A stretch of DNA of 33,031 bases from positions 1 to 33,031 of IMG/VR virus record IMGVR_UViG_3300023202_000338. One strand, 5' to 3'. Below, one piece after another: positions 784 through 18,973 of this stretch; within the stretch, counting starts at the first letter, position 1, and each line of letters opens with the position of its first letter. A program made the position numbers and the translations under genes. The notes under the pieces were generated by a model that saw only the letters and a program-made list of their open reading frames with translations, was not told where the DNA came from and did no database searches. The stretch comes from a virus.

Positions 784-787
784 GCGG

Positions 788-1327: not shown

Positions 1328-1606
1328 GTGACTCGGCGACCCGACTACATCCTCGAGCTGCGCCGGGCCTCCGTGCTCGGGACGGCGCTCGCCATGTCCT
1401 CAACGATTCTTGTCGCGTGCGCCGCCGTGCCATGGCTGGAGGCGCGGCCCGACCTCGCCGCTCGCGTGCTCCTGCTACCGCACGCCGGGCTCGTCGTCGC
1501 GTGCTTCGTGCTGCTGTGGCGCTTCCTGGGGGACCCTGACTTGACCGGCGGACGTGCGCGGGGTAGCCTCCCTCCCCCTGACGAACGGAGAGAGGGCCGA
1601 TGCTGA
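1328..1606 (+). CDS. Small membrane protein with two predicted TM helices
   Basis: 92 aa from a GTG at 1328 with AGGG 7 nt upstream. The first residues are charged (VTRRPDYILELRRAS), then a hydrophobic segment at about residues 14-36 (LGTALAMSSTILVACAAVPW) and a second at about 45-67 (VLLLPHAGLVVACFVLLW), ending in a polar Arg/Pro/Asp-rich tail. Two helices with a short loop is a holin-like shape, but the location among early small genes does not favour lysis. The GTG start is chosen because this frame shows coherent membrane segments whereas the ATG at 1288 opens a low-complexity frame. It overlaps the next gene by 7 nt. Confidence 0.6.
   Translation: MTRRPDYILELRRASVLGTALAMSSTILVACAAVPWLEARPDLAARVLLLPHAGLVVACFVLLWRFLGDPDLTGGRARGSLPPPDERREGRC
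1541..1569 (+). promoter_or_regulatory. Promoter P1 (TTGACC-17-TAGCCT)
   Basis: TTGACC at 1541-1546 and TAGCCT at 1564-1569 with a 17-nt spacer, inside the 3' end of the membrane protein gene. The -10 ends 30 nt before the ATG at 1600. It matches the TTG-N20-TAnnCT pattern found at several other gene starts in this window. Confidence 0.6.
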
Positions 1607-1866
1607 GGACGCTGGGCCGGGCCTGGAAGAGGTTGGCCCCGCGCGTGCGCGCTACGGCGACCGCCGCCGGGGACGCCCCGCCGGGCGTGCCCGAGCACGT
1701 CGCCCGGCAGCGTCGGCGTGCTGCGCGAGCGCGCGGCGCGAACCGACGGCGAAGCGACTTCTCGCGCCGGTGGGCGATCTTCCGCGCCGCGCGGATGGTG
1801 GAAGGTAAGCGAATCGACGCCACGAACCGCGGCCCGCTGCGCAGGCGACTGCGCGGCGGTTTCTGA
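1600..1866 (+). CDS. Small, strongly basic protein
   Basis: 88 aa, ATG start overlapping the previous stop; GGAGAGAGG (1589-1597) lies directly upstream. The protein is very rich in Arg and Ala (for example RQRRRAARARGANRRRSDFSRRW near residues 37-59, given as pattern only) and ends RRRLRGGF. Such a charge profile suggests nucleic-acid binding or structural packing, but no domain is recognisable. Its own promoter-like element (P1) suggests that it starts a transcription unit. A high-GC shadow frame can also look Arg-rich, so confidence is moderate. Confidence 0.6.
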   Translation: MLRTLGRAWKRLAPRVRATATAAGDAPPGVPEHVARQRRRAARARGANRRRSDFSRRWAIFRAARMVEGKRIDATNRGPLRRRLRGGF

Positions 1867-1881
1867 CTGGAGACTAGGACG

Positions 1882-2112
1882 ATGAAGGTAGCTACAAGGA
1901 CGACGCAGAAGTGCGTTCCGGTTGACGAGTGCCTGCCCGGCACCCTGGTACGCTCACGTAGCGGCGGGTGGTATGCACTCAGCAGGCTAGATCGAAAGGG
2001 TTTAGCCGTATCAGCAACCCGGATTGGGGACGGTGCTAAGACTTCCTTTTCGTTCGGCACGCTCGTGGAGGTCTACCCGGACGCCGAGGTGGTCCCGGGC
2101 GAACCGGCGTGA
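1882..2112 (+). CDS. Hypothetical 76-aa protein
   Basis: 76 aa, ATG start with a GGAG-containing leader. Mixed composition with a central Ser/Arg/Gly part (LVRSRSGGWYALSRLD) and a C-terminus (FSFGTLVEVYPDAEVVPGEPA) that reads as short beta strands. Codon use is less GC-extreme than its neighbours around 1985-2040, with several A/T-ending codons, which may hint at a separate origin. The stop overlaps the GTG of the next gene by 4 nt. No family recognised. Confidence 0.75.
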   Translation: MKVATRTTQKCVPVDECLPGTLVRSRSGGWYALSRLDRKGLAVSATRIGDGAKTSFSFGTLVEVYPDAEVVPGEPA

Positions 2113-2642
2113 CTGCCCGCCGGGACGCGACCGCGCCACCGCCCGAGTTGGTCGAGGGGTTCGTGCCCGAGCCGGAGCCCGAGGGTTGGGATCACCTTTT
2201 CTCGGACCCGGCGGCGGACGTGGCAGAGGCGCGCGCACGCATCGGGCAGCAGCCGCAGGGCGTCAAGTACCCCTATGAGTGTAAGTGGCTTTCCTTCGAG
2301 CAGACCGAGCAGCAACGCGACTGGTCAGAGAAGCTGGGACTCTATGGCGAGTCCGAACCAGACGACCCGCCCCGCTCCGACGCCGACTTCCGCGATGATC
2401 CGCGCTACGACGAGGTGCCCGCACTGCGCGGCCCCGACGGCCGGCCCGTCGTCGTGCAGCTCCACGACCCGCACGAGGTCGACGCCCGCGACTCCGTCGT
2501 CCCCGCGCGACGACTGCCCCGCGGGACGCGGACTCCGACGCGGGACGCGACTCCCTCCCGGGACGCGGGCGGCACGAGCTGGCGCCCGCGCCCGCGCGCC
2601 GGGGGAGCCTTCGACCTCGACGCCCCTTGCGGGGTCGTCTAG
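2109..2642 (+). CDS. Hypothetical 177-aa acidic protein
   Basis: 177 aa from a GTG overlapping the preceding stop (GTGA). The first two thirds are acidic with Trp/Tyr (GWDHLFSDPAADVAEARARI, YPYECKWLSFEQTEQQRDW), suggesting a folded domain. The last third becomes a Pro/Arg/Thr-rich tail with three imperfect GGGACGCG repeats in the DNA (about 2521-2570), probably disordered. It directly precedes the primase-helicase and its 3' end holds the promoter-like element P2. No family recognised. Confidence 0.7.
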   Translation: MTARRDATAPPPELVEGFVPEPEPEGWDHLFSDPAADVAEARARIGQQPQGVKYPYECKWLSFEQTEQQRDWSEKLGLYGESEPDDPPRSDADFRDDPRYDEVPALRGPDGRPVVVQLHDPHEVDARDSVVPARRLPRGTRTPTRDATPSRDAGGTSWRPRPRAGGAFDLDAPCGVV

Positions 2643-2655
2643 CTTGCCGTAGTCT
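2627..2655 (+). promoter_or_regulatory. Promoter P2 (TTGCGG-17-TAGTCT)
   Basis: TTGCGG at 2627-2632, 17-nt spacer, TAGTCT at 2650-2655, straddling the stop of the 177-aa gene. It is followed at once by AGGAGG (2656-2661), so a transcript starting about 7 nt after the -10 would begin after that Shine-Dalgarno. Either this promoter is not used, or the primase start lies downstream of 2665. Confidence 0.5.
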
Positions 2656-2664
2656 AGGAGGTCC

Positions 2665-5322
2665 TTGGAGGCGAGAGAGCAACTGCCCGTCGTCGGCGTC
2701 TGCCGCGACCGTCGGCAAGTCGGGGCCCGGCGTCCCGGGCCCGGCGTCCCGCTCATGGAGTGCGTCCCCCTGTACGAGGCGCTTTCCCGCGAGTGGCCGT
2801 CGGACGCGCACGTCACCACGTACGCGCCGACCGGCCAGACGAAGTGGCCGCGCCTCAACAAGTCCGTCCTCGAGCCCTTCCGTGCGCTCGGGGGCGACGT
2901 GCTCGCCACGTGCATGATGTTCGACTGGGACACGCCCGGCCACGTCGACCTCGACGGGGACAGGTACGAGGCGATGGTCGAGCAGCTCGCCAACGCAGCC
3001 GACGCCGGGCTGTGGCTGGCGGGCTGCTTCTACGCCGCGTACACGACGCGCGGCGGGATGCGTCTCGTCTACGTGCTGGAGCGCCCCGTCCCCGTCGACG
3101 AGGCCGAGGGTTGGGTGCGCGCGGTCGTGCGGGACTTCGCGCAGCACGGCATCGCGCTGGACCCGAGCTGCGCGGACTGGACGCGGCTCTTCCGACTGCC
3201 GCGCGTGCTGCGCGACGGGCAGCGGACTTCCCAGCACCCGCTCTTCGAGTGCGTCGTCCAGGAGGGCGCGCGCCTCGACGTGGATCGACTCGTCCGCGTC
3301 GAGGCGCGGAAGACTACTTCCGTGGACGCGCCGGCCCTCGACCTCCCGATGCCCGACCCGAGCGCGTCGCGCGACCTGCTGCGCGAGCGGAGCGACAAGA
3401 CCGGCAATCTAGTGATGACGCCCTGGCTGCGCGAGGCGCGCAAACGACTGCGCGGGCGGAGCTGCTACGCGTGCGCGTTCGAGGGCGCGGAGGTCGCACC
3501 GCAGGGGGAGCGACACCACGCGATCATGCGCTACGTGGGGGAGGCGTGCGCGGCGCTGCACCGACTGGACGGTACGACGCCCGAGCTCGTCTTCGCCGTC
3601 TTCGTCGACGCGATGCTCCGCATCGACCCGCAGACGTGTCGCGACGACCCGTTCGAGACCCTCTGGGAGGCGGTGCTCTACTGCTGGGCGCGCGAGCAGG
3701 AGCGCAAGCGCGTCGAGGACGAAGACCAGCGCACCCGCGAGGAAGGGAGGGAGTCCGTCCGCGCGAAGATGCTCGAGGGCGTGCGGACGTGGTGCGACCA
3801 CTCGTCGCTGACCGGCACTGACGACGAGGCCGGCGACTGGCTCGATGAGCACCTGGTCGCCTGCCACGGCCGCTCGTTCCACGTCATGCGCCGCGACGGG
3901 TTCTACGACTCGCTCCCGGTATCCGCGGGGCTCGTGCCGGCGCGCGTGCGCGAGCTCGGCATGGACTCGATGGTGGACCTCGTCGAGGAGGACCCGACCA
4001 CGGGACGGCTGCGCGAGGTTTCGCCGCAGACTCTGCTCAACCGCTGCGGCACGATCGTGCGCGCCGCCGAGGGCGTGATCGGGCCGGGCGGTTCCACGAT
4101 CCGGGACGTCGGCACGGACCGCGCGACGTTCCTCATGCACATGTTCGCCCGGCGCACGGACCTCGAGCCCGAGTACGACGCCGAGGTCGACGAGTGGTTG
4201 AACACCCTCGCCGGCGACGAGAACTACTACGACCTGTTGCGCTGGATCGGACACGCGCTGGACTTCGAGGGCGGACCCATCTGCGCGCTCTCGATCGAGG
4301 GCCCGCCGGGTGTGGGCAAGGGGCTGCTCATGCAGGGCCTCGCCGAGACGGTGGACACACAGACGTTCGCCGACACCAAGGAGCTCGGGAACTTCCAGTC
4401 GCAGATGGTACGCACGCCGTTCCTGCTCATCAACGAGGGCCTGCCGACGAAGATGCCGGGCACGAAGGACGTGGCCGACACCTTCCGTGCGCTCGTCGAC
4501 GGCAGCGCCACGGTCGTGAACCAGAAGCACCAGTCCCCGATCGTGGTGCACAACCCGATGCGCGTCGTCGTCGCCGCGAACAACGAGGACGTCGTCTCGC
4601 TCCTCGCCGGCGACAAGGACCTCTCGCCGCACGACCAGGAGGCGCTCGCGATGCGTCTATTCCACCTCGAGGTCGACGAGGGGGCCGCCGAGTACCTGCG
4701 CGTCAAGGGAGGGTTCCTGCACACGGCTCGCCCGGGCCGCCGATGGGTGCGCGGGCACGCCGGCGAGGCGAGCGCGCACGTCGTGGCGAAGCACTTCCTG
4801 CACCTCCACGCGACTCGCCCGGAAGTCAGGAGGGGCAGTCGGTTCCTCATGGAGGGTCCGCGGGACTCGAGACTCGTCCGACGCCTGAGCACGCGCTCGG
4901 GCAACGCGCCCGAGGTCGTCGAGACGGTCATCCACATGATCGAGAGCAACAAGCAGGACCAGGACGCCATCGTCGTGCAGGACGGCAGCATCTACGTGAC
5001 GACCGGCGGCGTGGTGAACCACCACCGGAACGCGTTCGCGTCGAAGTCGCGGCGCTCGCTCTCCTCGCGCGCCGTCTCTCGTACGCTGGACAGCCTGCGC
5101 ACTGCCGGTAGCCCGACCGAGCCGTACTCCATCAAGATCGGGGACAAGCCGGTGCGCAAGCGCTGGCGCGAGCTGGACTCACGCCGCCTGCTCGGAGAGG
5201 CCGTGGAGTACGGCTATCGCTGCGAGCGGCTACGCAGGATCGTCGAGGCCGGCGCTGCCGGCACGCACGTGCGCGTCGGTGACGAAGCGCGCTTCAGGCT
5301 GCCGAACCGACGCGATGGTTGA
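2665..5322 (+). CDS. Primase-helicase fusion (AEP-type primase plus DUF5906/D5-like helicase)
   Basis: 885 aa as called from TTG 2665; ATG 2755 is an alternative (855 aa), because residues 1-30 are low-complexity. It should make primers and unwind DNA at the phage fork. The N-terminal half has an archaeo-eukaryotic primase-like DxD (Asp87-Trp-Asp89 in FDWDTPG), then RGGMRLVYVLERP and DWTRLFRLPRVLRDG, typical of phage PrimPol domains. The C-terminal half has Walker A GPPGVGKG (546-553) and FLLINEG (586-592), as in DUF5906/D5-type SF3-like helicases. VVNQKHQ and RVVVAANNED follow as expected. It opens the replication block, and its stop overlaps the nuclease ATG by 8 nt. Domain order and motifs make the assignment firm; the start is not. 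Confidence 0.9.
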   Translation: MEAREQLPVVGVCRDRRQVGARRPGPGVPLMECVPLYEALSREWPSDAHVTTYAPTGQTKWPRLNKSVLEPFRALGGDVLATCMMFDWDTPGHVDLDGDRYEAMVEQLANAADAGLWLAGCFYAAYTTRGGMRLVYVLERPVPVDEAEGWVRAVVRDFAQHGIALDPSCADWTRLFRLPRVLRDGQRTSQHPLFECVVQEGARLDVDRLVRVEARKTTSVDAPALDLPMPDPSASRDLLRERSDKTGNLVMTPWLREARKRLRGRSCYACAFEGAEVAPQGERHHAIMRYVGEACAALHRLDGTTPELVFAVFVDAMLRIDPQTCRDDPFETLWEAVLYCWAREQERKRVEDEDQRTREEGRESVRAKMLEGVRTWCDHSSLTGTDDEAGDWLDEHLVACHGRSFHVMRRDGFYDSLPVSAGLVPARVRELGMDSMVDLVEEDPTTGRLREVSPQTLLNRCGTIVRAAEGVIGPGGSTIRDVGTDRATFLMHMFARRTDLEPEYDAEVDEWLNTLAGDENYYDLLRWIGHALDFEGGPICALSIEGPPGVGKGLLMQGLAETVDTQTFADTKELGNFQSQMVRTPFLLINEGLPTKMPGTKDVADTFRALVDGSATVVNQKHQSPIVVHNPMRVVVAANNEDVVSLLAGDKDLSPHDQEALAMRLFHLEVDEGAAEYLRVKGGFLHTARPGRRWVRGHAGEASAHVVAKHFLHLHATRPEVRRGSRFLMEGPRDSRLVRRLSTRSGNAPEVVETVIHMIESNKQDQDAIVVQDGSIYVTTGGVVNHHRNAFASKSRRSLSSRAVSRTLDSLRTAGSPTEPYSIKIGDKPVRKRWRELDSRRLLGEAVEYGYRCERLRRIVEAGAAGTHVRVGDEARFRLPNRRDG

Positions 5323-7093
5323 GAAGCCTGTCCGCCTGTCCTTCTCCCAGGTCGACGCCTGGCGCGCGTGCCACCGCAAGGACTGGCTGCAGCGCGTCGC
5401 GCGCGCGGAGACCTACTACCGGGACTACTTCCACTTCGGCAACGTGCTCCACTCCGTGTGCGAGCGCTGGCTCCTCGCCGACGACCGAGGCGTCGACCCC
5501 GAGACCGGCGAGCCCGTCGAGCTCTACCCGAAGGACTGGCACGTCGACCCGGACACGGGAGTCGCCCTGGACTCCGAGAAGCAGGCGTTGATCGCGAAGC
5601 TCGTCGGGAAGGCGATCGACGAGGGCGTGCTCGTGCGTGCCGCCGGCCGCGAGGTCGAGGTCGAGTTCGACCGCTTCCTCTGCGACGTCGACGGACGAGA
5701 GGTGCGCATCGTCGGCAAGGTGGACGTGCTCGAGCCCGAGGGCGTCACCGACCACAAGACCGTCGGGAAGTGGCGCTACGCGAAGTCCGCGCAGCAGCTC
5801 CAGCAGGATCCCCAGGTCCTGCTCTACTTGTGGGAGCTCGTGCAGCGCTACCGCGAGCGCGGCGAGGAGCCGCCCGAGCGCCTGTTCGTGCGCCACAACC
5901 AGTTCGGCAAGGACCCGGAGCGCCCGAAGGTCAGGAAGACCGAGGGCTGGGTCTCGGTGAGCGACGTCGACGCCGCGGTCGAGGGCTACCGTCGCGACGC
6001 CGCGAAGATGCTCCAGACCCGCGCCCTGCCGGACTGGCAGTCCGTGCCCGGCCCCGAACCAGGCTCGAACGCCTGCATGGCCTACGGGGGGTGCGACTTT
6101 CAACGCATCTGCTCGGGCGAACTCTCCGTCGAGGAGCACGACGACTTGCTCCGCCGCCTGAACCGGGATAGACTCTGCACCGACCAGACTACATCCAAGA
6201 GGACGAACGACGTGACGAACGACAGGTTGTCCAAGATGCTCGCCGCGCGGGGCAAGCCCGCGGCGGCGTCCGCCCCTGCCCCCGAGCTGAACTCCGGTCC
6301 GCCGCCCGCCGAGAGCGTCTCCGGCGAGGCGCCCACCGCCGTCGCCCCGGACGAGCCGACGCCTGCGGCGGAGCGCAGCGAGCCGGCGCCGTGGTACAGT
6401 GCCGGGTGTCCGTCGTGCTCGAGCAACCCAACGCCGGGAGTCACGAAGGCCAACCGGCCGTGCGTCGTCTGCAACGCGCGCCAGAAGGCGGAGGGCGGCG
6501 TGACCTCCGATGACTTCGTGATCACCCCAGGCGGTGCACCGGGCACGCTGGAGTGGACTCCTCGCGAGGGCGTCGAGGCGTCGACGGGGGGCGCGGCAGC
6601 TCCGCCCGTCGCCGAGCCGAAGGCCGAGCAGCGCGTCGAGACCGACCCGCCGAAGCCCGAGCCGAAGCCCGAGCCGAAGCCCGAGCCGAAGCCCGAGCCG
6701 AAGCCCGAGCCGAAGCCCGAGCTCGAGCTCGACCCCAAGCCCGCCAAGCGCGGGCCCGGACGCCCGCCCAAGGGCTTCACGCTGTACGTGAAGTGTCGCC
6801 CGACCAAGGGCACGGCCGTCGGGAAGGTCATCCATCTCTCCGACGCTCTCCGTGCGCACATCCGCGCGATGGAGGTGAACCCCTCGAACGGGGGCAGCGA
6901 GGAGTCGCCCGCGAACTTCTGGGCCATGCGCGCCTTCGACAGGCGCGAGGTGCTGAACAGCAACGCCGAGCGCATGGCCTCCGACTTCGGGACGGGGCAC
7001 GTCGTCGCGGACGTCGAGGGCATTCGGGAAGGTGACGAGATCGTCGCTCTCCTGCGGGGCCTCGCTTCGCACGTCGTGGAGGGTGTGGCGTGA
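5315..7093 (+). CDS. PD-(D/E)XK nuclease (RecB/Cas4-like) fused to a zinc-ribbon, AT-hook-like protein
   Basis: 592 aa from ATG 5315, overlapping the primase stop. Residues 1-290 are a RecB/Cas4-type nuclease: LSFSQVDAWRAC at the start, Asp137 in GKVD, Asp146-His-Lys148 as the D...DxK core, and DPQVLLYLWEL resembling the QxxxY region. Four cysteines (Cys19, Cys254, Cys260, Cys266) could hold an Fe-S cluster as in AddB/Cas4. From residue 300 the chain changes: Pro/Ala-rich, then a zinc ribbon Cys365-x2-Cys368-x14-Cys383-x2-Cys386. Six KPEP-type repeats and RGPGRPPKG (479-487, AT-hook-like) follow, then a folded C-terminus. A promoter, SD and GTG at 6146-6214 suggest that the second half (293 aa) may also be made alone. 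Likely role: DNA end processing in replication or recombination. Confidence 0.8.
   Translation: MVEKPVRLSFSQVDAWRACHRKDWLQRVARAETYYRDYFHFGNVLHSVCERWLLADDRGVDPETGEPVELYPKDWHVDPDTGVALDSEKQALIAKLVGKAIDEGVLVRAAGREVEVEFDRFLCDVDGREVRIVGKVDVLEPEGVTDHKTVGKWRYAKSAQQLQQDPQVLLYLWELVQRYRERGEEPPERLFVRHNQFGKDPERPKVRKTEGWVSVSDVDAAVEGYRRDAAKMLQTRALPDWQSVPGPEPGSNACMAYGGCDFQRICSGELSVEEHDDLLRRLNRDRLCTDQTTSKRTNDVTNDRLSKMLAARGKPAAASAPAPELNSGPPPAESVSGEAPTAVAPDEPTPAAERSEPAPWYSAGCPSCSSNPTPGVTKANRPCVVCNARQKAEGGVTSDDFVITPGGAPGTLEWTPREGVEASTGGAAAPPVAEPKAEQRVETDPPKPEPKPEPKPEPKPEPKPEPKPELELDPKPAKRGPGRPPKGFTLYVKCRPTKGTAVGKVIHLSDALRAHIRAMEVNPSNGGSEESPANFWAMRAFDRREVLNSNAERMASDFGTGHVVADVEGIREGDEIVALLRGLASHVVEGVA
6146..6174 (+). 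promoter_or_regulatory. Internal promoter P3 (TTGCTC-17-TAGACT) inside the nuclease ORF
   Basis: TTGCTC at 6146-6151, 17-nt spacer, TAGACT at 6169-6174. It is followed by AAGAGGA (6197-6203) and a GTG at 6212, in frame with the long ORF, which would yield a 293-aa protein starting VTNDRLSKMLAARG. The motif, SD and start mimic other gene starts in this window. Confidence 0.55.
6212..7093 (+). CDS. Probable independent start for the zinc-ribbon/AT-hook protein (nested in the 592-aa ORF)
   Basis: 293 aa if translated from GTG 6212, in frame with the upstream nuclease. AAGAGGA sits 8 nt upstream and promoter P3 ends 37 nt upstream. In the upstream reading, the residues encoded across this junction (RLNRDRLCTDQTTSKRTND) look like read-through of a leader rather than a designed linker. 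The product has a Pro/Ala-rich head, a C-x2-C...C-x2-C zinc ribbon, a KPEP-repeat spacer, an AT-hook-like GRPPKG and a 100-residue C-terminal domain of unknown fold. DNA binding is the natural guess. Whether the cell makes a fusion, a separate protein or both is undetermined. Confidence 0.5.
   Translation: MTNDRLSKMLAARGKPAAASAPAPELNSGPPPAESVSGEAPTAVAPDEPTPAAERSEPAPWYSAGCPSCSSNPTPGVTKANRPCVVCNARQKAEGGVTSDDFVITPGGAPGTLEWTPREGVEASTGGAAAPPVAEPKAEQRVETDPPKPEPKPEPKPEPKPEPKPEPKPELELDPKPAKRGPGRPPKGFTLYVKCRPTKGTAVGKVIHLSDALRAHIRAMEVNPSNGGSEESPANFWAMRAFDRREVLNSNAERMASDFGTGHVVADVEGIREGDEIVALLRGLASHVVEGVA
6653..6724 (+). repeat. 12-bp in-frame repeats encoding Lys-Pro-Glu-Pro units
   Basis: Six units of AAGCCCGAGCCG (the last ends CTC) run in frame and encode a KPEP-repeat spacer between the zinc ribbon and the AT-hook-like motif. 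Such stretches form stiff, extended, charge-alternating linkers. Repeat number is likely to vary by slippage between related phages. Confidence 0.9.
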
Positions 7094-7269
7094 ACGGGCG
7101 GGTCTCGCGGCTCATCCGTCGGCTCGCGCGGTGCGCGCAGGAGTCCGAGAAGCAGCTCAAGAAGCGCTGGAACGAGATTCCTCGCGATCGGCGCTCGGTA
7201 GCCGCCCTGCGCAGCTCGGTGCTGTTCGCCGAGGGCAAGGTGCGCGAGGCGCTCGGCAAGCGGGCGTAG
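7090..7269 (+). CDS. Small basic helical protein (59 aa)
   Basis: 59 aa from GTG 7090, which overlaps the upstream stop (GTGA), to TAG at 7267-7269; the helicase GTG follows 3 nt later. Reading VNGRVSRLIRRLARCAQESE then KQLKKRWNEIPRDRRS, it is basic and looks like two amphipathic helices. Tight packing between two replication genes makes it a likely real, translationally coupled gene. No family recognised; it could be a cofactor of the nuclease or helicase. Confidence 0.65.
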   Translation: MNGRVSRLIRRLARCAQESEKQLKKRWNEIPRDRRSVAALRSSVLFAEGKVREALGKRA

Positions 7270-7272
7270 CCC

Positions 7273-9366
7273 GTGGACGAGTTGTCCCGTAGGCTCGCCG
7301 CACGCGGGCGGGACGTGCCCGCCCCGGAGAAGCCGCCGGTCGACATCGAGGCCGTGCTGGAGGCGCGAGGCACGTCGCCCGAGCAGCAACGAGGCACGAG
7401 CTTCGCGGAGATTCGGCGGATCGTCGACTTGCCGGTGCGCGGCAAGCTGACACCCGAGGAGATCGAGGAGATCAGCCGGATCTACTGCCAGGAGGCCGCA
7501 CTACGTCGAGGGTTTCGCCTGTTCGAGGAGCAGGCGCGCATGATCTCGGAGTTCAGCTACCTCGACGGTGCGTTCGGGAACGTGCCCGTCGGGCGGGGCA
7601 AGACGCTCATCGACATCGCGCTCGCGCAGGTGAGCTACGCCGACAAGGGGCACCGCAAGGTCCTCGTGCTCGTGCCTCCCGGCAACGTGGACTCGATGGT
7701 GCGTCTCATACCTCAGATCCGCAGGTGGATCACCGTGACCGTACCGCTGCACTACGTGCAGGGCAACGTCAGAGCTCGCGGGAGACTCGCCGGCTCCGGT
7801 CTCCCCGGCTGCTACGTCATGCCGTACTCGTTGCTGTCCACGCCGGACACAGTCGACATCCTGAACGCCATCGAGCCCTCCGTGCTGATCTGCGACGAGG
7901 TGCACCGGCTGAAGAACCGCACGTCCGCCCGGACCAAGCGGATCACGAAGTACCTGCGAGGGCACCCCGGCACGAAGTTCGTCGGCATGTCAGGTACGAT
8001 CACGAACAAGTCCCTCATGGACTATTGGCACCTCCTCGGTTGGGCCCTCGGGGGCAACGCGCCGGTGCCCATGAGCCGCGACCTCATCTACCAGCTCGCC
8101 GCGGTGCTGGACGCCGACGCGGACCCGACCGACGACGCCATTCGACGGTGGGCGCCGCTGCGGTACTGGGCGCGCGCGTGGTTCCCCGACGAGCCCGTCA
8201 CGGGCACGGTCGAGGGACTCCGCCGTGCCTACCGCCTTCGCTTCTCCTCGGCTCCGGGCGTCGTGCCGTCGAGCGGAGAGCAGCTCGACACCGGGCTGCT
8301 GCTGCGCAACGCCCCGCGCGAGGACGCCGTGCACTCCCCGTCCCAGGCGGGTAGGAAGCAGCTCGACGAGATGATCCAGACGGTACGAGACCTGTACGTC
8401 ACCCCGTCGGGCGACGAGTTGGCGCACGCCGTGCAGGCGCACAAGTGGCTGCGCGAGCTGACGGTCGGGTTCTACAACCAGCAGGTCTGGCCGGAGCCGG
8501 AGAAGATCGCGCGCAGGCACGGCGTCGGCGAGGACGACGCGCGCGAGATGATCGTGCGCGCGCAGACCCACCACGACCTACACCAGGAGTACGTGGGGGC
8601 GCTGCGCAAGTGGCTCTCGAAGGGCCAGCAGGACAAGCTCGACACGCCGCGTCTCGTGGGCCAGAACATGGCCGCTCACGGCGCGCGCGACGTGGGCGAG
8701 GGGCTGTACCGCTACTGGAAGGCGATGAAGGATGAAGAGTTCCGCGAGATGCCCCAGCGCGAGAGCCGACCGGTGCGCGTCTGCCCCTTCAAGGTCGACT
8801 ACGCCGTGCGGTGGGCCCTACGCAACGCCGCGCTGCCTGACCGAGGTGGTGTCATCTGGGTCTACCACCGGGCAGTCGGCGAGTGGGTGCTCGAGGCGCT
8901 GCAGGAGGCCGGCATCGAGGGCGTGGTTCCCGCGCCGGCGGGGAACGTACCCGAGCTCGAAGACCCCCAGCACAGGAGCAGCATCTTCGTCGCGTCGATC
9001 TTCGCGCACAACACGGGGCGGAACATGCAGCACCACCGGCACCAGCTCTGTCTGGAGTGGCCGCGCAACGCGGTCGCCGCGCAGCAGATGCTGGGCCGAC
9101 TGCATCGCACCGGCCAGGACGCCGACGACCTCGTGGTGGGCCTGTGCGACGTGACGGACTACGACGTCGAGGCACGCGCGGCGGGGCTGAACGACGCGCT
9201 GTACCAGACGCAGACGACCGGCGAGGTGCAGAAGGTCATCTGGGCGCGGTACGAGCCCACGCCGCAGACGATGCCGACCGCCGTGCTGCGCGAGCGCGGT
9301 TTCGAGCCGGAGACCCTCACCCGCGAGCAGGAGCAGATGCTGTCCGAGCAGTTCGACACGGCTTGA
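7273..9366 (+). CDS. SNF2/SF2-type DNA helicase or translocase
   Basis: 697 aa, GTG start 3 nt after the preceding stop. The ATPase motifs are in SF2 order: Walker A GRGKT (residues 107-111), DEVH box (208-211, in LICDEVHRLKN), motif III SGT (240-242, in GMSGTITNKS) and motif VI QQMLGRLHRTGQ (604-615). The last has the QxxGRxxRxGQ form characteristic of the SNF2 group. Proteins of this kind translocate on duplex DNA; phage versions sit in replication modules and are thought to remodel forks or displace proteins. A long insert between the two RecA-like lobes (about residues 260-500) is rich in charged helices. Neighbours (nuclease, polymerase) support a replication or recombination role. Confidence 0.88.
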   Translation: MDELSRRLAARGRDVPAPEKPPVDIEAVLEARGTSPEQQRGTSFAEIRRIVDLPVRGKLTPEEIEEISRIYCQEAALRRGFRLFEEQARMISEFSYLDGAFGNVPVGRGKTLIDIALAQVSYADKGHRKVLVLVPPGNVDSMVRLIPQIRRWITVTVPLHYVQGNVRARGRLAGSGLPGCYVMPYSLLSTPDTVDILNAIEPSVLICDEVHRLKNRTSARTKRITKYLRGHPGTKFVGMSGTITNKSLMDYWHLLGWALGGNAPVPMSRDLIYQLAAVLDADADPTDDAIRRWAPLRYWARAWFPDEPVTGTVEGLRRAYRLRFSSAPGVVPSSGEQLDTGLLLRNAPREDAVHSPSQAGRKQLDEMIQTVRDLYVTPSGDELAHAVQAHKWLRELTVGFYNQQVWPEPEKIARRHGVGEDDAREMIVRAQTHHDLHQEYVGALRKWLSKGQQDKLDTPRLVGQNMAAHGARDVGEGLYRYWKAMKDEEFREMPQRESRPVRVCPFKVDYAVRWALRNAALPDRGGVIWVYHRAVGEWVLEALQEAGIEGVVPAPAGNVPELEDPQHRSSIFVASIFAHNTGRNMQHHRHQLCLEWPRNAVAAQQMLGRLHRTGQDADDLVVGLCDVTDYDVEARAAGLNDALYQTQTTGEVQKVIWARYEPTPQTMPTAVLRERGFEPETLTREQEQMLSEQFDTA

Positions 9367-9390
9367 CTTCCCCGGTCTCGGGTGTATCCT
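9363..9390 (+). promoter_or_regulatory. Promoter P4 (TTGACT-16-TATCCT)
   Basis: TTGACT at 9363-9368 overlaps the helicase stop; after a 16-nt spacer comes TATCCT at 9385-9390, with TG immediately before it. It is the best -35 in the set and lies in the 85-bp gap before the 198-aa gene (ATG 9452). Confidence 0.65.
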
Positions 9391-9451
9391 CGAGGCCCTG
9401 GCTACGAAACCGCGGGCGCCGAGCTGGCGACCCGCCAGGAGCAGAGAAGCG

Positions 9452-10048
9452 ATGGAACAGGAAAAGTACGCAGTTCCCGACGGGGCGTTCACGGACCTGG
9501 ACGGCGCCGGCGGTCTGAACGTCGCGCAGTACGTGCGTTTGGGGCGCTACGTGGCGCTCGTGCGGGAGGTCCGGTATCTCCCGAAGGCTGGCCGGAACAA
9601 GATCCCGGCGACCGTGATCGAGATGGACGTGCTCGCGTGCCTCAGCGCGCCCGAGACTTGGGCGGACGGGGAGCCGGGCAAGTCGGTACCGCACACGCCC
9701 CACTCCGTCGGCGATCGGATCACCGACTTCATCAACATGGCGAAGGTGTACGCCGCCCAGGCGCTGAACTCCTTCATCGGCTGCTGCATGGGGGTCGACC
9801 CGAGGAAGGTCGGCCCCGAGCACGCCGCGACCGTCTGCGGGCCGACGCAGCCGGTGGCTGGCACGATTCTCCTCTTCAACGCCTTCGAGAAGGAGAACGA
9901 GTCCGGGACGGTGGTCTACTCGCGCGTGAACTACGAGCGCGTCGTGCCGGCAGCGGAGCTGGCCGACATCCTCGACGAGGCCGGCATCCGCGTGCTCGGC
10001 GGCGAAGCCAAGCTCGCCGAGATGGTCGAGGCCGAGACCGCCGCCTAG
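9452..10048 (+). CDS. Unknown 198-aa replication-module protein (candidate ssDNA-binding protein)
   Basis: 198 aa, ATG start with AGAGAAG about 4 nt upstream, behind promoter P4. Alternating hydrophobic stretches suggest beta structure: QYVRLGRYVALVREVRYL (about residues 25-42), ATVIEMDVLACL (51-62) and TILLFNAFEKENESGTVVYS (about 137-156). The tail is acidic (EMVEAETAA). Beta-rich core plus acidic tail, between helicase and polymerase and at high expected expression, fits a phage SSB with an OB fold. No signature is recognised and this remains inference. Another non-enzymatic replication accessory protein is possible. Confidence 0.75.
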   Translation: MEQEKYAVPDGAFTDLDGAGGLNVAQYVRLGRYVALVREVRYLPKAGRNKIPATVIEMDVLACLSAPETWADGEPGKSVPHTPHSVGDRITDFINMAKVYAAQALNSFIGCCMGVDPRKVGPEHAATVCGPTQPVAGTILLFNAFEKENESGTVVYSRVNYERVVPAAELADILDEAGIRVLGGEAKLAEMVEAETAA

Positions 10049-10171
10049 CATCGGAACGTAGCGGGGCTCTCGGGACTCGCGGGTCGCTGACCCTCCCCTT
10101 TCCCGACTCAGCCCTCTTCGGGTCGCCTCGCGCGACCGAGGGCCCCGCCCTTTCCCCGCCGGAGCCACGAC
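10049..10171 (+). promoter_or_regulatory. Intergenic gap with an imperfect hairpin before the polymerase gene
   Basis: 123 bp without a gene. It contains GGTCGC (10121-10126), loop CTCGC and GCGACC (10132-10137), flanked by CCTC (10113-10116) and GAGG (10138-10141), giving a bulged stem. Pyrimidine-rich stretches (CCCTCCCCTTTCCC near 10090) surround it and no U-run follows, so it is a weak terminator or a leader structure controlling polymerase expression. No clear promoter is seen. Confidence 0.45.
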
Positions 10172-12397
10172 GTGCTGACCATCGCGATCGACACAGAGAC
10201 GGACCTGATCGGCCCCGGGAACGTGGTGCCGCGTATGGTCTGCACCTCGGCGGCCTACAGGGACGAGACCAACGAGCTGCAGTCCGTGCTCCTCGCCTCG
10301 AGTGAGCGCGACGACCTGCTCGTCTTCTGGCAGTCCCTGCTCGAGGACGACGAGATCCAGCTCGTCTTCCACAACGCAGGCTTCGACCTCGCGGTAGCCG
10401 CGCGTGAGCTCCCGGAACTCCTCCCGCTCATCTGGCGGAAGCTCGCTTCCGGCGAACTCGTCACCGACACCGCCGTGCGCGAGCGCATCCTGCGCATCAC
10501 CACGACGGGTGACGTCAGTTACGAGGAGCTGCCCGACGGCAGCAAGCTGAAGCTGAAGTACAGCCTCGCCGACCTCGCCGAGCGACACCTCGGCGTGGAC
10601 ATGCGCGAGGAGAAGGACGACCCCGAGGGCTGGCGCCTCAACTTCGCGGCGCTGATGGGGCTACCGGCCGACGAGTACCCGGAGGCCGCCGCGGGGTACG
10701 CGCGCAACGACGCCGTACGCACGCTCGAGATCTACGAGCGACAGGAAGAGATCTCGCGGGGCAACATCCACGGTCCCCACTCCACGAGGGGCGAGTACGA
10801 GAAGACGGCGCTATCGTTCGCGCTCTACCTCGTAACCGCGCGTGGCTGGCACGTCGACCCCGTCGAACGGGACAGGCTGAGGGCTTGGGTCGCCGAGGAG
10901 CTGCGCGACGACAAGCTCGAGCTGCTCGTCGAGGCCAAGATCCTGCGCCCCGAGCGGCCGCCGGCACCGTACGCGAACCAGAAGAAGCGCGTCGCCGAGC
11001 TGTTCGAGATGTCCGCGGAGGACGTCGAGTCGCGGCGGTCGTGGACCGACGAGGAGCTGCAGCGTTGTCGCGACGCGGGCATCCGCACGCGCGCCGGGCA
11101 GAAGGGTTCTATCGACACCAAGAAGCTGCACCAGCACGTGCGCGCTGTCTGCGAGCGCCTCGGCGTGGAGGTGCTGCTGACCGAGCCGAGCGAACGCTAC
11201 CCCGAAGGGCAGGTCAGCACCAAGGAGTCGTTCGTCGCCGAGCTGGCGCCGCACGACGAGGTGCTATCGCAGTTCCACCATCGGCAGGGGTTGCAGCAGA
11301 TCGTGAACAAGGAGCTGCCCCCGCTCGAGTCGCCGATCGTGCACTTCAACTACACGCCGGTGGTGTCCTCGTACCGCACGAGCAGCCACGGGGCGCAGAA
11401 GGGCAGGGAGCTCTACCCGGCGACGCAGGGCCACAACGTGAACCCGAAGGTGCGTCGCGCGTACGTCGCGCGCCCCGGGATGGTCCTCTGCAGCGCGGAC
11501 TACGACCGCCTGGAGCTGTGCACGCTCGCGCAGAAGTGCTACGAGCTGTTCGGGCAGAGTCGCATGCGCGACCTCATCAACGAGGGCGTGGACTTGCATG
11601 CGTACCTCGGTGCGCAGATCGCGCTCGAGATGCAGCCGGACTTCGCCGGCGCGGTCTACAAGTTCCGCGAGGACCCGATGGCGGTCTACCGCGCGTTCAC
11701 GGAGCTCAAGGGCTCGGCAGACGAGGAAGTCGCCGCCATCTACGCGAAGTTCCGCAAGCTCGCGAAGCCGACCGGGCTCGGCTACCCGGGCGGTCTGGGG
11801 CCGGCCAAGTTCGTGAACTTTGCCGCCAGCAAGGCGTACAAGGTCCACGTCGACGAGGAGACCGCCTCGAAGCTGCGAGAGATCTGGTTCGGCACGTTCC
11901 CTGAGATGCGCTCGTACTTCGACTGGGTGAACAGCAACTGCGTCGACCCGATCAACCCGGGCGACGTCGACGAGGAGACGGGTCGCAGGCGCGAGCGATA
12001 CTGCTACTACACCCCGCTCGGCTTATACCGCGCTGGCTGCGCGTTCACCGAGTGCGCGAACGGCGCGGGGCTGCAGAGCTTCGCGGCGGACGGGTTCACG
12101 CTGGCGACGTTCAACGCCGTGCGCGCGTGCAGCGATCCCGAGTTCGGGTCGGTGCTGTACGGCGCGCACGTGCTGAACCAGGTGCACGACGAGATCATCT
12201 GCGAGTGGGAGGACGACGAACGCTCGAGCGAGCGTGCCGAGGAGTTGGCGCGGGTCATGCGCCTCTGCATGGAGGTCGTCGTGCCCGACGTGAAGATCAC
12301 CGTCGAGCCGGCGCTCATGCGGCGCTGGGACAAGGACGCAAAGTCCGTGCGCGACGAGCAGGGCCGACTAGTCGTTTGGGAGGATGAAGAGCGATGA
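10172..12397 (+). CDS. polA: Family A DNA polymerase with 3'-5' exonuclease domain
   Basis: 741 aa from GTG 10172. It replicates the phage genome. The proofreading domain has Exo I Asp7-Thr-Glu9, Exo II HNAGFD (Asp72) and Exo III YARND (Tyr176, Asp180). The polymerase domain has motif A ADYDRLEL (Asp443, Glu448), motif B RKLAKPTGLGYPGG (Arg528, Lys532) and motif C VHDE (671-674, Asp673). There is no 5'-3' exonuclease domain. By simple alignment with E. coli Pol I, the O-helix position equivalent to Phe762 is Leu536, and motif A has DRLELC for the usual SQIELR. Its stop overlaps the resolvase ATG by 4 nt. Family assignment is secure; the alignment of motif B is by eye. Confidence 0.95.
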   Translation: MLTIAIDTETDLIGPGNVVPRMVCTSAAYRDETNELQSVLLASSERDDLLVFWQSLLEDDEIQLVFHNAGFDLAVAARELPELLPLIWRKLASGELVTDTAVRERILRITTTGDVSYEELPDGSKLKLKYSLADLAERHLGVDMREEKDDPEGWRLNFAALMGLPADEYPEAAAGYARNDAVRTLEIYERQEEISRGNIHGPHSTRGEYEKTALSFALYLVTARGWHVDPVERDRLRAWVAEELRDDKLELLVEAKILRPERPPAPYANQKKRVAELFEMSAEDVESRRSWTDEELQRCRDAGIRTRAGQKGSIDTKKLHQHVRAVCERLGVEVLLTEPSERYPEGQVSTKESFVAELAPHDEVLSQFHHRQGLQQIVNKELPPLESPIVHFNYTPVVSSYRTSSHGAQKGRELYPATQGHNVNPKVRRAYVARPGMVLCSADYDRLELCTLAQKCYELFGQSRMRDLINEGVDLHAYLGAQIALEMQPDFAGAVYKFREDPMAVYRAFTELKGSADEEVAAIYAKFRKLAKPTGLGYPGGLGPAKFVNFAASKAYKVHVDEETASKLREIWFGTFPEMRSYFDWVNSNCVDPINPGDVDEETGRRRERYCYYTPLGLYRAGCAFTECANGAGLQSFAADGFTLATFNAVRACSDPEFGSVLYGAHVLNQVHDEIICEWEDDERSSERAEELARVMRLCMEVVVPDVKITVEPALMRRWDKDAKSVRDEQGRLVVWEDEER

Positions 12398-12918
12398 ACA
12401 TACTCGCGGTCGACCCCGGTTCGCGCGTGACGGCGTTGGCGAGTTTGTCCCGTAAGAGCCTCAGCGTCCAGGTGCTGCGCGCCAAGGGCGAAGTGGGGAT
12501 GATATGCCAGGTCGTAGACGAAATGAGGTACCTGTGCGAGGGTTGGATCCCTTACGACCACGTCGTCGTGGAGGGCCAAGAGTACCGCCACGCTCGGGGG
12601 TCAAACCCGAACCAGCTCATGCCTCTGGCGCACGTCGCTGGGGCCGTAGCCGGGGCTGCTCTAAGGAGTAACCGCGACATGGCGCTGACCTTCGCCCGCC
12701 CCACGGAGTGGAAGGGCACCGTGCCGAAGCTGCCCCACAACATGCGCACGGCGAAGAAGCTCGGTTGGAAGTTCCACGCGAGCGAGACGAAGGCGCCGTA
12801 CGTCGTCGTCGACGATTGCGGTGATACCGATATCGTCGGCGAAGTTCGACCGCGCGAGTGGTCCGACGTGCTCGACGCCGTCGGGCTGGCCCTCTGGATG
12901 AAGGGGCAGAAGAGATGA
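12394..12918 (+). CDS. RuvC-like Holliday junction resolvase
   Basis: 174 aa, ATG overlapping the polymerase stop; GGAGG lies about 12 nt upstream in the polymerase coding region. The RNase H-fold acidic set is complete: Asp7 in LAVDPGS, Glu60 in VVVEGQ, and Asp158 with Asp161 in SDVLDAVGLAL. This matches the Asp/Glu/Asp-x2-Asp arrangement of RuvC, and the length is close to bacterial RuvC (about 170 aa). It would cut four-way or branched junctions made during replication so that concatemers can be packaged by the terminase. Its gene directly follows the polymerase and overlaps the next gene by 4 nt. Confidence 0.82.
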   Translation: MNILAVDPGSRVTALASLSRKSLSVQVLRAKGEVGMICQVVDEMRYLCEGWIPYDHVVVEGQEYRHARGSNPNQLMPLAHVAGAVAGAALRSNRDMALTFARPTEWKGTVPKLPHNMRTAKKLGWKFHASETKAPYVVVDDCGDTDIVGEVRPREWSDVLDAVGLALWMKGQKR

Positions 12919-13268
12919 CCGAGCACGTCCTGAAGGATAGCGGAGAGCGCGAGGTCTTCTCGACCGGCAGTAGGCGGGATACCCGTGCCGGCAAGGGTCG
13001 CTACGACCTCATGTCGCCGTCCGCTCTTCGTCGTCTCGCTCTCGTGTACGAGCGTGGCGCCGAGAAGTATGGCGATCGCAACTGGGAGAAGGGCCAGTCG
13101 ATGTCCCGGTGCATGGACAGCGCGCTGCGCCACCTCTTACAGCGCCTCGACGGCCACCTAGACGAGGACCACCTCGCGCAGGCTGCGTGGAACATCCTAG
13201 CGTGCATTCATTTCGAGGAGAAGGTCGCCGTCGGCGAACTTCCGCCCGAGTTGGCTGACCTGCCGTGA
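12915..13268 (+). CDS. DUF5664 / dATP-dGTP diphosphohydrolase-like protein (MazG-like)
   Basis: 117 aa from ATG 12915. It matches a family I recognise as DUF5664, annotated in phages as dATP/dGTP diphosphohydrolase. The pattern is VFSTGSRRDTRAGKGRYDL (residues 14-32), then SPSALRRLALVYERGAEKYG, DRNWEKG, ALRHLLQRL and EDHLAQAAWNILACIHFEE. The repeated acidic/His helices resemble the all-alpha MazG-type NTP pyrophosphatase core (Glu46, Glu50, EDH). It would hydrolyse purine dNTPs to monophosphates, changing the nucleotide pool. In 2-aminoadenine (Z) phages the MazZ enzyme does this next to PurZ; no PurZ or DatZ gene is present here. The activity is inferred from family only. Confidence 0.82.
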   Translation: MTEHVLKDSGEREVFSTGSRRDTRAGKGRYDLMSPSALRRLALVYERGAEKYGDRNWEKGQSMSRCMDSALRHLLQRLDGHLDEDHLAQAAWNILACIHFEEKVAVGELPPELADLP

Positions 13269-13864
13269 CGGAGATTCAGGCCCACGCGCCGAAGATCTGG
13301 ACACCGCCGACGCTCATCGTCGGCGAGGCGCCTTCCCGGCAGATGCAGGAGGCGATCGACGCCGGCGACGAGAACGCCGCGTCCTACGCCTGCCTGCACC
13401 CGAACCTGGCCGCGATCGCCGGCATCGACGTGAAGGACCTCTACCTGCTGTTCCGGCGCGCGAACCTGCTGCAGCGCTGGCCCGGACCCTCGCGCTCGGG
13501 CAGGGGCGACGACTTCGACGAGTCCGCGGGGCGTGCCTCGGCGTTGGCCCTGTCACGCTACGTCAAGGACCCCCACAACCGCGTGCGCGAGGTCGTCCTC
13601 CTCGGCCGGCGCGTGGCCCGCGCCTTCGGGTTCGGGCCGCAGACACCGTTCTTCGCGGAGCTCATCGATAGGGGCCCGCGGCTCTATGTTGCCCCGCACC
13701 CGTCGAAGGTGTCGAGGTGGTGGAACAAGCCCGAGAACGTTGCCGGAGCGCAGTCCTTCTGGCTCGCGATCGTCGCCGACGCGCGAACCGCGATGAAGGA
13801 TGCTTGCGCGAGGCCGAGACCCGGTGTACTCTCCAGGCTCACCCGAAAGAGGAGCACGACGTGA
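13265..13864 (+). CDS. Uracil-DNA glycosylase superfamily-like protein
   Basis: 199 aa from GTG 13265 (overlap GTGA). LIVGEAPS (residues 17-24) resembles the GEAPG motif of family 4/5 uracil-DNA glycosylases, VVLLGRRVARAFG sits in the middle, and APHPSKVSRWWN (His145-Pro-Ser147) resembles the C-terminal HPS motif. These suggest the UDG fold, which removes uracil or related bases. The catalytic Asp/Asn after GEAP is not obvious (Ser24-Arg-Gln follows), so activity is uncertain and a different base or a binding role is possible. The last 20 residues (RPRPGVLSRLTRKRS) are encoded over promoter P5. The preceding DUF5664 gene points to base quality or DNA modification. Confidence 0.72.
   Translation: MTEIQAHAPKIWTPPTLIVGEAPSRQMQEAIDAGDENAASYACLHPNLAAIAGIDVKDLYLLFRRANLLQRWPGPSRSGRGDDFDESAGRASALALSRYVKDPHNRVREVVLLGRRVARAFGFGPQTPFFAELIDRGPRLYVAPHPSKVSRWWNKPENVAGAQSFWLAIVADARTAMKDACARPRPGVLSRLTRKRSTT
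13804..13832 (+). promoter_or_regulatory. Promoter P5 (TTGCGC-17-TACTCT)
   Basis: TTGCGC at 13804-13809, 17-nt spacer, TACTCT at 13827-13832, within the 3' end of the UDG-like gene. AAGAGGAG (13847-13854) and the GTG at 13861 follow with standard spacing, 28 nt after the -10. Confidence 0.6.
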
Positions 13865-14629: not shown

Positions 14630-14970
14630 CCGACGCCGACATGCATGCCCGGGTGCGCGCTGTCGACGAGCTCGTCGCGGACGTGCTGCAGCAGGTCGAC
14701 CGCATCGACAACTACTTCATGCAGCACCCGATCAACGGCCGGGAGCTGTCCGAGGCCGAAGCCGGGCACCTGATCCGTCGGCGCCAGCTCGGGATGATCG
14801 TGCGCTCGACCCTCGACAAGCTCGAGTTGATCTGGAACGTGGCGGACCCCGAGTACGGTCCGCGGATGTTCGGGTTCACCGACGACGACCTCTTCGAGCT
14901 CGGCCTGAAGTACCGTCGAGACGCCCAGAAGGCTGCAGACGAGCGCGAGGGTGGACCCGAGGCCGGCTAG
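14626..14970 (+). CDS. Hypothetical 114-aa helical protein
   Basis: 114 aa from GTG 14626, overlapping the preceding stop. Mostly predicted helix: AVDELVADVLQQVDRIDNYF, EAEAGHLIRRRQLGMIVRS, DKLELIWNVADPEYG and ELGLKYRRDAQKAADE. Charged helical bundles of this size are often oligomerisation or scaffold-like factors. It is the last gene before a promoter-like element and hairpin, so it may end a transcription unit. Function unknown. Confidence 0.75.
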   Translation: MTDADMHARVRAVDELVADVLQQVDRIDNYFMQHPINGRELSEAEAGHLIRRRQLGMIVRSTLDKLELIWNVADPEYGPRMFGFTDDDLFELGLKYRRDAQKAADEREGGPEAG

Positions 14971-14980
14971 CAGGTAGGAT
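14951..14980 (+). promoter_or_regulatory. Candidate promoter P7 (GTGGAC-18-TAGGAT)
   Basis: TAGGAT at 14975-14980 lies within GGTAGGATGG (14973-14982), an exact 10-mer shared with 18992-19001. The -35 match (GTGGAC, 14951-14956) is weak. The -10 ends 28 nt before the GTG at 15009. Confidence 0.45.
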
Positions 14981-17223: not shown

Positions 17224-17447
17224 CGTTGCTGATCCTGCTCGACTCACATGCGAGCGATGTCGCCGAGCCGGCGCCGCTCGTGAGGTCTTTCCTCCGAGCT
17301 GCCGTACTGACGTCCACGCTCGTCGCGGCTCGAGTGATTCTCGCCTCGCACCCCCCAGGCGGCATCGCCGAGCGCGACCTTCGCAAGGCGCGCGTGGCGG
17401 TGTACGATGGGCTGAAGGCAGCCATCCTCCAGGAGACGCACAGGTGA
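17220..17447 (+). CDS. Hypothetical 75-aa protein
   Basis: 75 aa from GTG 17220, coupled to its neighbours by 4-nt overlaps at both ends. The first half is hydrophobic (TLLILLDSHASDVAEPAPLV and FLRAAVLTSTLVAARVILAS) and could hold one weak membrane segment; the second half is basic and helical (ERDLRKARVAVYDGLKAAI). Not recognised. Could be a small accessory or membrane-associated virion factor. Confidence 0.6.
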   Translation: MTLLILLDSHASDVAEPAPLVRSFLRAAVLTSTLVAARVILASHPPGGIAERDLRKARVAVYDGLKAAILQETHR

Positions 17448-17803: not shown

Positions 17804-18973
17804 GTGACCGACACCCCCGACCACGACCGTTTCTCCTTGGCCGAGCGCAGCTCGCGACACGCGCTAGCCGAGGAGCGTCAACGTGCTCGTAGTCGCATGC
17901 CCCTCGCGCCGCGCGAAGACGAGCCGGCGCCCGACACCGACGGTGCGCGGTTCGCGCTCGAGCCGAACATGCCGGAGCACCGCGACGCTCAGCGCCTGGA
18001 GGTGGCCGGCGAGGGGGAAGAAGAGCCAGACACCCAGACGAGCCACCGCGAGCTCGAGCTCACGATGGGTCGGGTCTTCCTGCGCCAGCAGCTCACGATG
18101 CAGGACCTCCACCCGTTTCGCGTGCGAGTAGCGTACAGGTGGATGCGCGAGGTCTCCGTCCTGAAGTCCCTGGTCGCGCACGACCAGACGCTGACTGACG
18201 GCCTACTCACGGATCGCTGGGACGCTTTCCACGACGGCGACGCCGGCGCTCTACCTGACATGAATGCCTACGCCCGGTCACGCCTCGACGTGGTCGAGGA
18301 GGTCAACGCGCCGGACGGCGTGCCGCTACTCCCACCGCGCGTGCCGGAGGAGTACCTGGACAACGGGGCGGTCTCCGATCGCTACGACCCGGAACACGAC
18401 GAGGGCCTAGCCGCGTGGCTGCGTGCGTTCCGCTCCGTCACCGCGTACTTGGGCGTCGTACACGCGAGTGTCGAGAGCCCGGACGAGGGTCGGTACGGGC
18501 TCTACGGGATGTTCGATCCCCGCACCGTAAGGCTGCTCTTCCCGTCCGTGCAGGAGATCTTGACGTGGGAGGATGTCCTCGTCCGCGAGGTATGGCGCGA
18601 GCTCGTCGCGTCGAGTCGCGAGCAGACCCGCCGCAGCCTGCACCGCCGCTACGGCCTGGCCGACGTCGAGATCCAGCACCTCCTGCGCATGGCCGCCGCG
18701 TACGGCCTGGCGACGAACGAGGTCGACCTCGAGATCGATCGGGCAGTGGCCTGCGCACGCCTGGAAGACCTAGCGCGCCGGTGCCGAGAGGTCGCCGGCG
18801 ACGAGCGCGCCGAGCTCTCCACGATCAAGGCGTGGATGCTGGCGAAGGGCATCACTCGCTCCGAGCCGGAAGACGCCATGAAGGAGTTCGCGGCCGTAAT
18901 CCGGCGCGTCTCGGCGCCCCAGAAGGTCCTGGACGCCCCGGCACCCCAGCCCCGGCTCGGCCCAGGCTCTTGA
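17804..18973 (+). CDS. 389-aa protein preceding the packaging genes (possible small-terminase-like or accessory protein)
   Basis: 389 aa from GTG 17804. The first 90 residues are disordered-looking (RFSLAERSSRHALAEER, acidic GEGEEEPDTQTS). The middle is helical with RVRVAYRWMREVSVLKS and WLRAFRSVTAYLGV. The C-terminal part (about 270-370) has RRYGLADVEIQHLLRMAAAYG and STIKAWMLAKGITRSEPEDA, which look helix-turn-helix-like. It lies three genes upstream of the terminase large subunit, the usual site of the small subunit, but no signature confirms that. Function open. Confidence 0.65.
   Translation: MTDTPDHDRFSLAERSSRHALAEERQRARSRMPLAPREDEPAPDTDGARFALEPNMPEHRDAQRLEVAGEGEEEPDTQTSHRELELTMGRVFLRQQLTMQDLHPFRVRVAYRWMREVSVLKSLVAHDQTLTDGLLTDRWDAFHDGDAGALPDMNAYARSRLDVVEEVNAPDGVPLLPPRVPEEYLDNGAVSDRYDPEHDEGLAAWLRAFRSVTAYLGVVHASVESPDEGRYGLYGMFDPRTVRLLFPSVQEILTWEDVLVREVWRELVASSREQTRRSLHRRYGLADVEIQHLLRMAAAYGLATNEVDLEIDRAVACARLEDLARRCREVAGDERAELSTIKAWMLAKGITRSEPEDAMKEFAAVIRRVSAPQKVLDAPAPQPRLGPGS

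Follow-up and report, generated by a model that had tools for sequence, protein, structure and literature searches.

Sigma70-like promoter candidates in an uncultured G+C-rich phage and a conserved internal start in its nuclease gene

The virus record IMGVR_UViG_3300023202_000338 of IMG/VR, taken here at its full length and called the window (33,031 bases, linear, 69% G+C), contains five copies of a promoter-like motif, TTG-N19/20-TAnnCT, starting at positions 1541, 2627, 6146, 9363 and 13804. At least four of them (1541, 6146, 9363 and 13804) are very probably housekeeping sigma70/sigmaA promoters for the host RNA polymerase, and the one at 6146 would feed a gene nested in frame within a nuclease gene. 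A preliminary description had picked out the five sites by eye and proposed that they mark a shared regulon of early or middle genes recognised by host sigma70 or a phage factor. Its hexamers (Table 1) and its spacers of 17, 17, 17, 16 and 17 bp were reproduced exactly.

Across the window the motif occurs exactly five times on the plus strand, and the minus strand holds no copy at spacing 19/20. The comparison with shuffled sequence on both strands that had been proposed as a check gave an average of 0.27 copies per strand and a maximum of 2 in 200 dinucleotide shuffles. Synonymous-codon shuffling (300 shuffles) gave a mean of 1.18 sites and a maximum of 3, with one site always counted because these shuffles leave the intergenic 1541 site untouched. 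To remove the by-eye choice of pattern, every NNN-N19/20-NNnnNN dyad was counted. TTG/TAnnCT ranked first among 11,548 dyads on the plus strand, with 5 seen and 0.24 expected (p=5e-6, uncorrected), and first again in positions 1-14400 (p=6e-8); no similar dyad was on top on the minus strand. When the halves were kept fixed and the gap was varied from 8 to 35, five of the six TTG..TAnnCT pairs on the plus strand fell at 19/20.

The location of the sites relative to genes agrees in part with the earlier account. Most were said to end about 30-40 nt before a start codon; the actual gaps are 30, 9, 37, 61 and 28 nt, which fits three sites at most. Several were also said to lie inside the 3' end of the preceding gene. 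The 13804 and 6146 sites are wholly within a gene and the 2627 and 9363 sites overlap a gene end, whereas the 1541 site begins 2 nt past a stop codon. The start codon after 6146, GTG 6212, is internal and in frame and does not open a separately annotated open reading frame (ORF).

The defining parts of the motif are TTG, a spacer of 16-17 bp and TA...T. Sigma70 promoters across phyla share these letters; their general features include TTG and a T at -7, and their commonest spacer is 17 bp, with transcription most often beginning 6 bp past the -10 element (PMC8407463). A generic sigma70 score with hand-set weights and no preference for CT placed 9 of its 11 best plus-strand sites in the zone 5-80 nt ahead of gene starts, which holds 7.6% of positions (binomial p=4e-9). 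The 9363 site scored best on the plus strand and the 1541 site second best (11.9). The same score added sites at 14952, 17380 and 18970 before later genes. All three end in AT, and the CT ending is therefore not shared by every promoter of this phage. An exact 10-mer, GGTAGGATGG, is common to the 14952 and 18970 sites (14973-14982 and 18992-19001), about 28-33 nt before the gene starts, and its two copies are probably the -10 regions of two further promoters. Recognition of host sigma70 type, one of the two options offered originally, is well supported by the non-random count, the spacing specificity, the position and the conservation in relatives, and we infer that host sigma70 would initiate transcription at the motif sites. 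A shared early or middle regulon defined by TAnnCT found no support, with AT-ending sites before later genes and a fifth base that is free in relatives. The five sites do not clearly form a separate promoter class, and their CT ending appears mostly to reflect the 69% G+C genome and the by-eye selection.

Comparison at the DNA level found the window to be without a close known relative, and single-sequence searches of viral contigs with the helicase, primase and terminase gave no match. An alignment of three polymerase sequences led to 65 viral loci and six genome loci (numbered with an L below). Whatever the G+C class of these relatives, TTGAC..TAnnnT on the coding strand peaks sharply at spacers of 16-17. 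A start codon preceded by a Shine-Dalgarno (SD) sequence follows within 100 nt in 63 of 94 cases, commonly at 30-60 nt (median 40 nt). The order of the helicase gene, a gene for a protein like single-stranded DNA-binding protein (SSB) and the polymerase gene is maintained.

The best-supported of the five sites is 9363, which lies at the junction of the helicase and SSB-like genes. From -50 to +49 of the stop codon of the helicase (55 loci, window excluded), sigma70-like pairs reach 6.0 hits per gap value, some three times the 1.87 for control gaps. A similar excess, 5.0 versus 1.32 (50 loci), is found 41-80 nt before the SSB-like start, and the window distance is 61. About 15 of the 50 relatives have a promoter in this interval before the orthologous gene, and it often spans the stop codon of the helicase. 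The stop falls in the -10 element in L001 and in the -35 element in the window; the letters shift and the place is retained. The window's SSB-like protein (9452-10048) had no match in Pfam, PHROG or NCBIfam. Its AlphaFold model has a predicted local distance difference test score (pLDDT) of 90.7, and its best match in the PDB is the OB-fold ssDNA-binding protein PrgE (E=4.5e-5, probability 1.00). Because of this high-confidence fold and the PrgE match, the 9363 promoter would most likely supply an SSB. The family is fast-evolving and is found in 66 other loci near SNF2 helicase and polymerase genes.

The 6146 site lies in the single ORF that encodes a PD-(D/E)XK nuclease fused to a C-terminal domain. 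The internal start in the window is AAGAGGACGAACGAC-GTG (6212), translated MTNDRLSKMLAARG. Nuclease and C-terminal domain form one fused gene in nearly all relatives; since these keep one continuous ORF, a separate gene downstream of 6146 was ruled out. About 50 diverged relatives have an SD sequence and an in-frame ATG or GTG at the domain boundary, a median of 15 codons after the nuclease domain (for example L037:5448, L052:3955 and L053:181), followed by a stretch that resembles an N-terminus, such as MSSLLDRLKAR in L015. For this comparison the relatives' starts were chosen by best SD match, and those of the window and L028 were set by hand. At the boundary, 57% of 51 ORFs combine an in-frame start with an SD match of 5 or more, versus 8% elsewhere in the same ORFs; in the two other frames the values were 8% and 0%. 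In 51 of 53 cases the nuclease ORF runs on without a stop for 100 codons or more beyond the domain; for the other two frames the figures would be 3 and 7. Of the 51 start codons, 43 are ATG, 7 are GTG and 1 is TTG. The second residue is S, T, A, G or N in 46 of the 51 internal starts, versus 107 of 416 other internal Met residues (p=1.5e-19; the p-values for the nested start are overstated because related sequences are not fully independent).

The relatives are nevertheless diverged, their C-terminal domains having only 13-30% identity to that of the window. The domain is conserved and has a predicted alpha/beta fold (model pLDDT 85.2) that matched no known family or fold. In L053 it is encoded by a stand-alone gene that starts MTDLFEKMKALKAKK and has a TTGACA-17-TAAATT promoter of its own, and the nuclease is a separate upstream gene. 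These observations suggest that the conserved second start probably yields a shorter protein from the nuclease gene. L061 likewise has a distinct ORF for the C-terminal part. A tandem 12-bp repeat at 6649-6743 encodes an (EPKP)n linker just before the conserved C-terminal domain of the nested protein. Local RNA folding around 6146-6230 gave nothing helpful (z=0.64).

How could such sites work together? In the tightly packed, co-directional early gene block, the host RNA polymerase probably uses internal promoters to top up transcripts. Ribosomes starting at 5315 and 6212 would produce the nuclease with its C-terminal domain and, in addition, the C-terminal domain alone, and in the window phage the 6146 promoter would contribute mRNA solely for the short form. 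By analogy to RpnL/RpnS, the short protein may bind the nuclease and restrain it or assemble with it. In a fuller reading, a widespread phage lineage, with relatives also in Myxococcota- and Planctomycetota-assigned assemblies, nests a gene in its nuclease gene; the separate C-terminal protein attaches to the full-length nuclease to hold back or adjust its activity, as a phage counterpart of RpnL/RpnS, and in the window phage the 6146 promoter raises the dose of this short protein. This reading is tentative, and we consider it rather doubtful as a whole. Modulation of the full-length enzyme is one possible role of the short protein; complementary roles of the two products, as in two-polypeptide endolysins, may apply on a par with restraint.

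Other readings of the five sites were weighed against host sigma70 promoters. That they are chance matches or coding artefacts gathered by a motif-seeking reader has some force, since the pattern was picked after the sites had been viewed and the shuffle test of the count is post hoc on its own, several sites overlap coding sequence and the match at 2627 is partly explained by an SD sequence (TAGGAGG). The first rank among unselected dyads, the mere 0.27 copies expected from dinucleotide shuffling, the failure of codon-preserving shuffles to recreate the motif and the conservation of the 9363 position in distant relatives largely refute this account, and we regard it as very improbable. A phage-encoded or modified polymerase or sigma factor that reads TTG-N19/20-TAnnCT as an early or middle promoter class of its own would explain why the fifth -10 position is C in all five sites and A in the three further sites near later genes (TAGGAT, TACGAT and TAGGAT). 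The phage P23-45, a more distant relative by polymerase only, employs two RNA polymerases of its own and transcribes its early genes with them (PMC10770324). The conserved parts of the motif are, however, exactly the contacts of host sigma70, and the C/A split concerns eight sites and was noticed after the fact. The scanned proteins of the window, a contig that is a fragment, included neither a phage sigma factor nor an RNA polymerase. The proposal that CT defines a promoter class was rejected, as the relatives' promoters at the place equivalent to 9363 end in AT, GT, TT or CT. A literature search for 'TANNCT' found no paper. Recognition by such a phage factor is improbable.

Several observations, along with the precedent of P23-45, count against host sigma70 promoters at all of these places. 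A strict sigma70 scan flags only 9363, a result that is uninformative at 69% G+C, and outside 1541 and 9363 the -35 hexamers retain just TTG, any further agreement being due to chance. At 2627, the weakest of the five sites, the SD sequence sits between the site and the TTG start and room for a normal leader is lacking; a leaderless mRNA, the use of a later start or no promoter at all could account for this, and a promoter here is doubtful. The 2627 geometry recurs in L052 as TTGACG-16-TACCTT-N10-ATG, and in L013 a promoter stands 29 nt ahead of the primase start; in the other relatives with the region upstream of the primase in hand, no promoter was seen there. At 6146, the relatives give no clear sign of a conserved promoter: between -150 and 0 of the internal start there are 0-1.3 versus 0.1-0.5 hits per gap value, with few events. 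There is a real chance, somewhat short of even, that 6146 is no promoter, that operon mRNA alone serves the 6212 start and that the match arose by chance: the internal ribosome site is kept in about 50 relatives, and a promoter at that place is found in only a handful. Against this, 6146 is among the best generic sigma70 scores on the plus strand, and has the usual geometry 37 nt before its start, and the stand-alone homologue in L053 carries a promoter of its own. We retain 6146 among the candidate host sigma70 promoters. The 1541 and 13804 sites have good geometry; homologues of the genes downstream of them were not found in the relatives.

The features discussed and the surrounding genes are listed in Table 1.

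Table 1. Promoter-like sites and genes of the window.
Feature	Position	Strand	Details
Sigma70-like promoter TTGACC-17-TAGCCT	1541..1569	+	30 nt before small gene 1600-1866
Weak, doubtful promoter-like site TTGCGG-17-TAGTCT	2627..2655	+	9 nt before TTG 2665 of DUF5906 primase gene
Sigma70-like site TTGCTC-17-TAGACT	6146..6174	+	Inside nuclease ORF, 37 nt before internal GTG 6212
Sigma70-like promoter TTGACT-16-TATCCT	9363..9390	+	Overlaps helicase stop codon, 61 nt before SSB-like gene
Sigma70-like site TTGCGC-17-TACTCT	13804..13832	+	In 3' end of gene 13265-13864, 28 nt before GTG 13861
Additional sigma70-like site TGGACC-17-TAGGAT	14952..14980	+	Score 11.1; 28 nt before gene 15009
Weaker additional site TTCGCA-17-TACGAT	17380..17408	+	Score 10.9; 35 nt before gene 17444
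Additional sigma70-like site TTGAGC-18-TAGGAT	18970..18999	+	Score 11.6; 33 nt before lipoprotein-like gene 19033
DUF5906 primase-helicase gene	2665..5322	+	PF19263, phrog_1156; 3' of 2627 site
PD-(D/E)XK nuclease fused to C-terminal protein	5315..7093	+	Single ORF, 592 aa; PF12705 E=3.6e-16
Putative nested in-frame gene within a gene	6212..7093	+	293 aa C-terminal protein; GTG start, Shine-Dalgarno AAGAGGA
SNF2/DEAD-type helicase gene	7273..9366	+	Pfam; 39% identity to L001
OB-fold ssDNA-binding-like protein gene	9452..10048	+	AlphaFold model, PDB structure match
Family A DNA polymerase gene	10172..12397	+	PF00476; query for finding relatives
dATP/dGTP diphosphohydrolase gene	12915-13268		
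Terminase large subunit gene	19603-21132		
Tail genes		minus	

The nuclease ORF has the residues GxxD and DxK plus four Cys, and the latter suggest an Fe-S cluster. A strong hairpin at 22355-22396 (GGGGGCCCCG..CGGGGCCCCC; fold z=-2.5), between the converging plus- and minus-strand gene blocks, is possibly a two-way terminator, and no T-run terminators were found in 1-16500. The window is the complete IMG/VR record and probably a genome fragment. Its left end carries an exact 52-bp tandem repeat of 3.1 copies (32-191) and its right end a 116-base repeat with starts at 32748 and 32916 (32748-33031); the assembly probably broke at terminal repeats. ARAGORN called a 97-nt tRNA-Phe at 26120-26216 on the plus strand, antisense to a tail gene, which is probably a false hit. 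The polymerase gene of the phage group also occurs in L073 (Corallococcus praedator CA031B, which carries nuclease, helicase and SSB-like genes as well), L072 (a Myxococcaceae metagenome-assembled genome, MAG) and L074-L076 (PVC/Planctomycetota MAGs), and these bacterial assemblies hint at the hosts. In L027, four near-identical promoters, TTGACCGCGGCCGCGATCGGCCGTA(T/G).., lie at 93, 587, 989 and 2504, and some of them are only 6-7 nt from an ATG downstream, which suggests leaderless early genes in that phage.

The promoters of the window phage are in themselves of an ordinary bacterial type, but they allow transcription to be mapped out in advance for an uncultured, G+C-rich phage. They also show that, throughout a diverged group of phages, a promoter for the SSB-like gene tends to recur where the helicase gene stops. 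Given the conserved second start in the nuclease gene, automatic annotation would overlook one protein in about 50 phages, and the pairing of a nuclease with a C-terminal fragment of itself becomes open to direct testing in a phage.

Among known systems, P23-45 has early promoters with AT-rich or GC-rich motifs for its virion and non-virion RNA polymerases (PMC10770324). The family A polymerase of the window phage is detectably related to that of P23-45, but the motif in the window is sigma70-like, unlike the promoters of the P23-45 enzymes. In the RpnL/RpnS system, a PD-(D/E)XK nuclease is checked by its separately translated C-terminal part, which can be a gene of its own (PMC10327210). The window gene likewise encodes a PD-(D/E)XK nuclease, in a phage, with an internal in-frame start and a C-terminal part that varies more than the nuclease and is a separate gene in some genomes. 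It differs from that bacterial defence gene in its place in a phage replication module, in its PF12705-type nuclease and in the predicted alpha/beta fold of a C-terminal domain with no known-family match. The whole ORF matched only PF12705 and neither the Rpn family nor a DUF4351-type C-terminal domain; the C-terminal domain (43 members) had no Rpn-type match in Pfam, and PADLOC gave no match. Two-polypeptide phage endolysins make a full-length and a C-terminal product from one gene through an in-frame internal start (PMC9430671). The arrangement in the window is the same in that one phage gene has an in-frame internal start for a C-terminal product, and it is different in that the gene is a nuclease gene of the replication block and not a lysis gene. 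The motif sites, known from sequence alone, depart from typical promoters of the group 1 sigma factors (housekeeping sigma70/sigmaA) in a -35 element that is often only TTG, a -10 element that ends in CT in five sites and a G+C-rich setting. They resemble them in the TTG -35, the 16-17 bp spacer and the TA...T -10, with a start codon usually about 30-60 nt downstream and the genes on the same strand.

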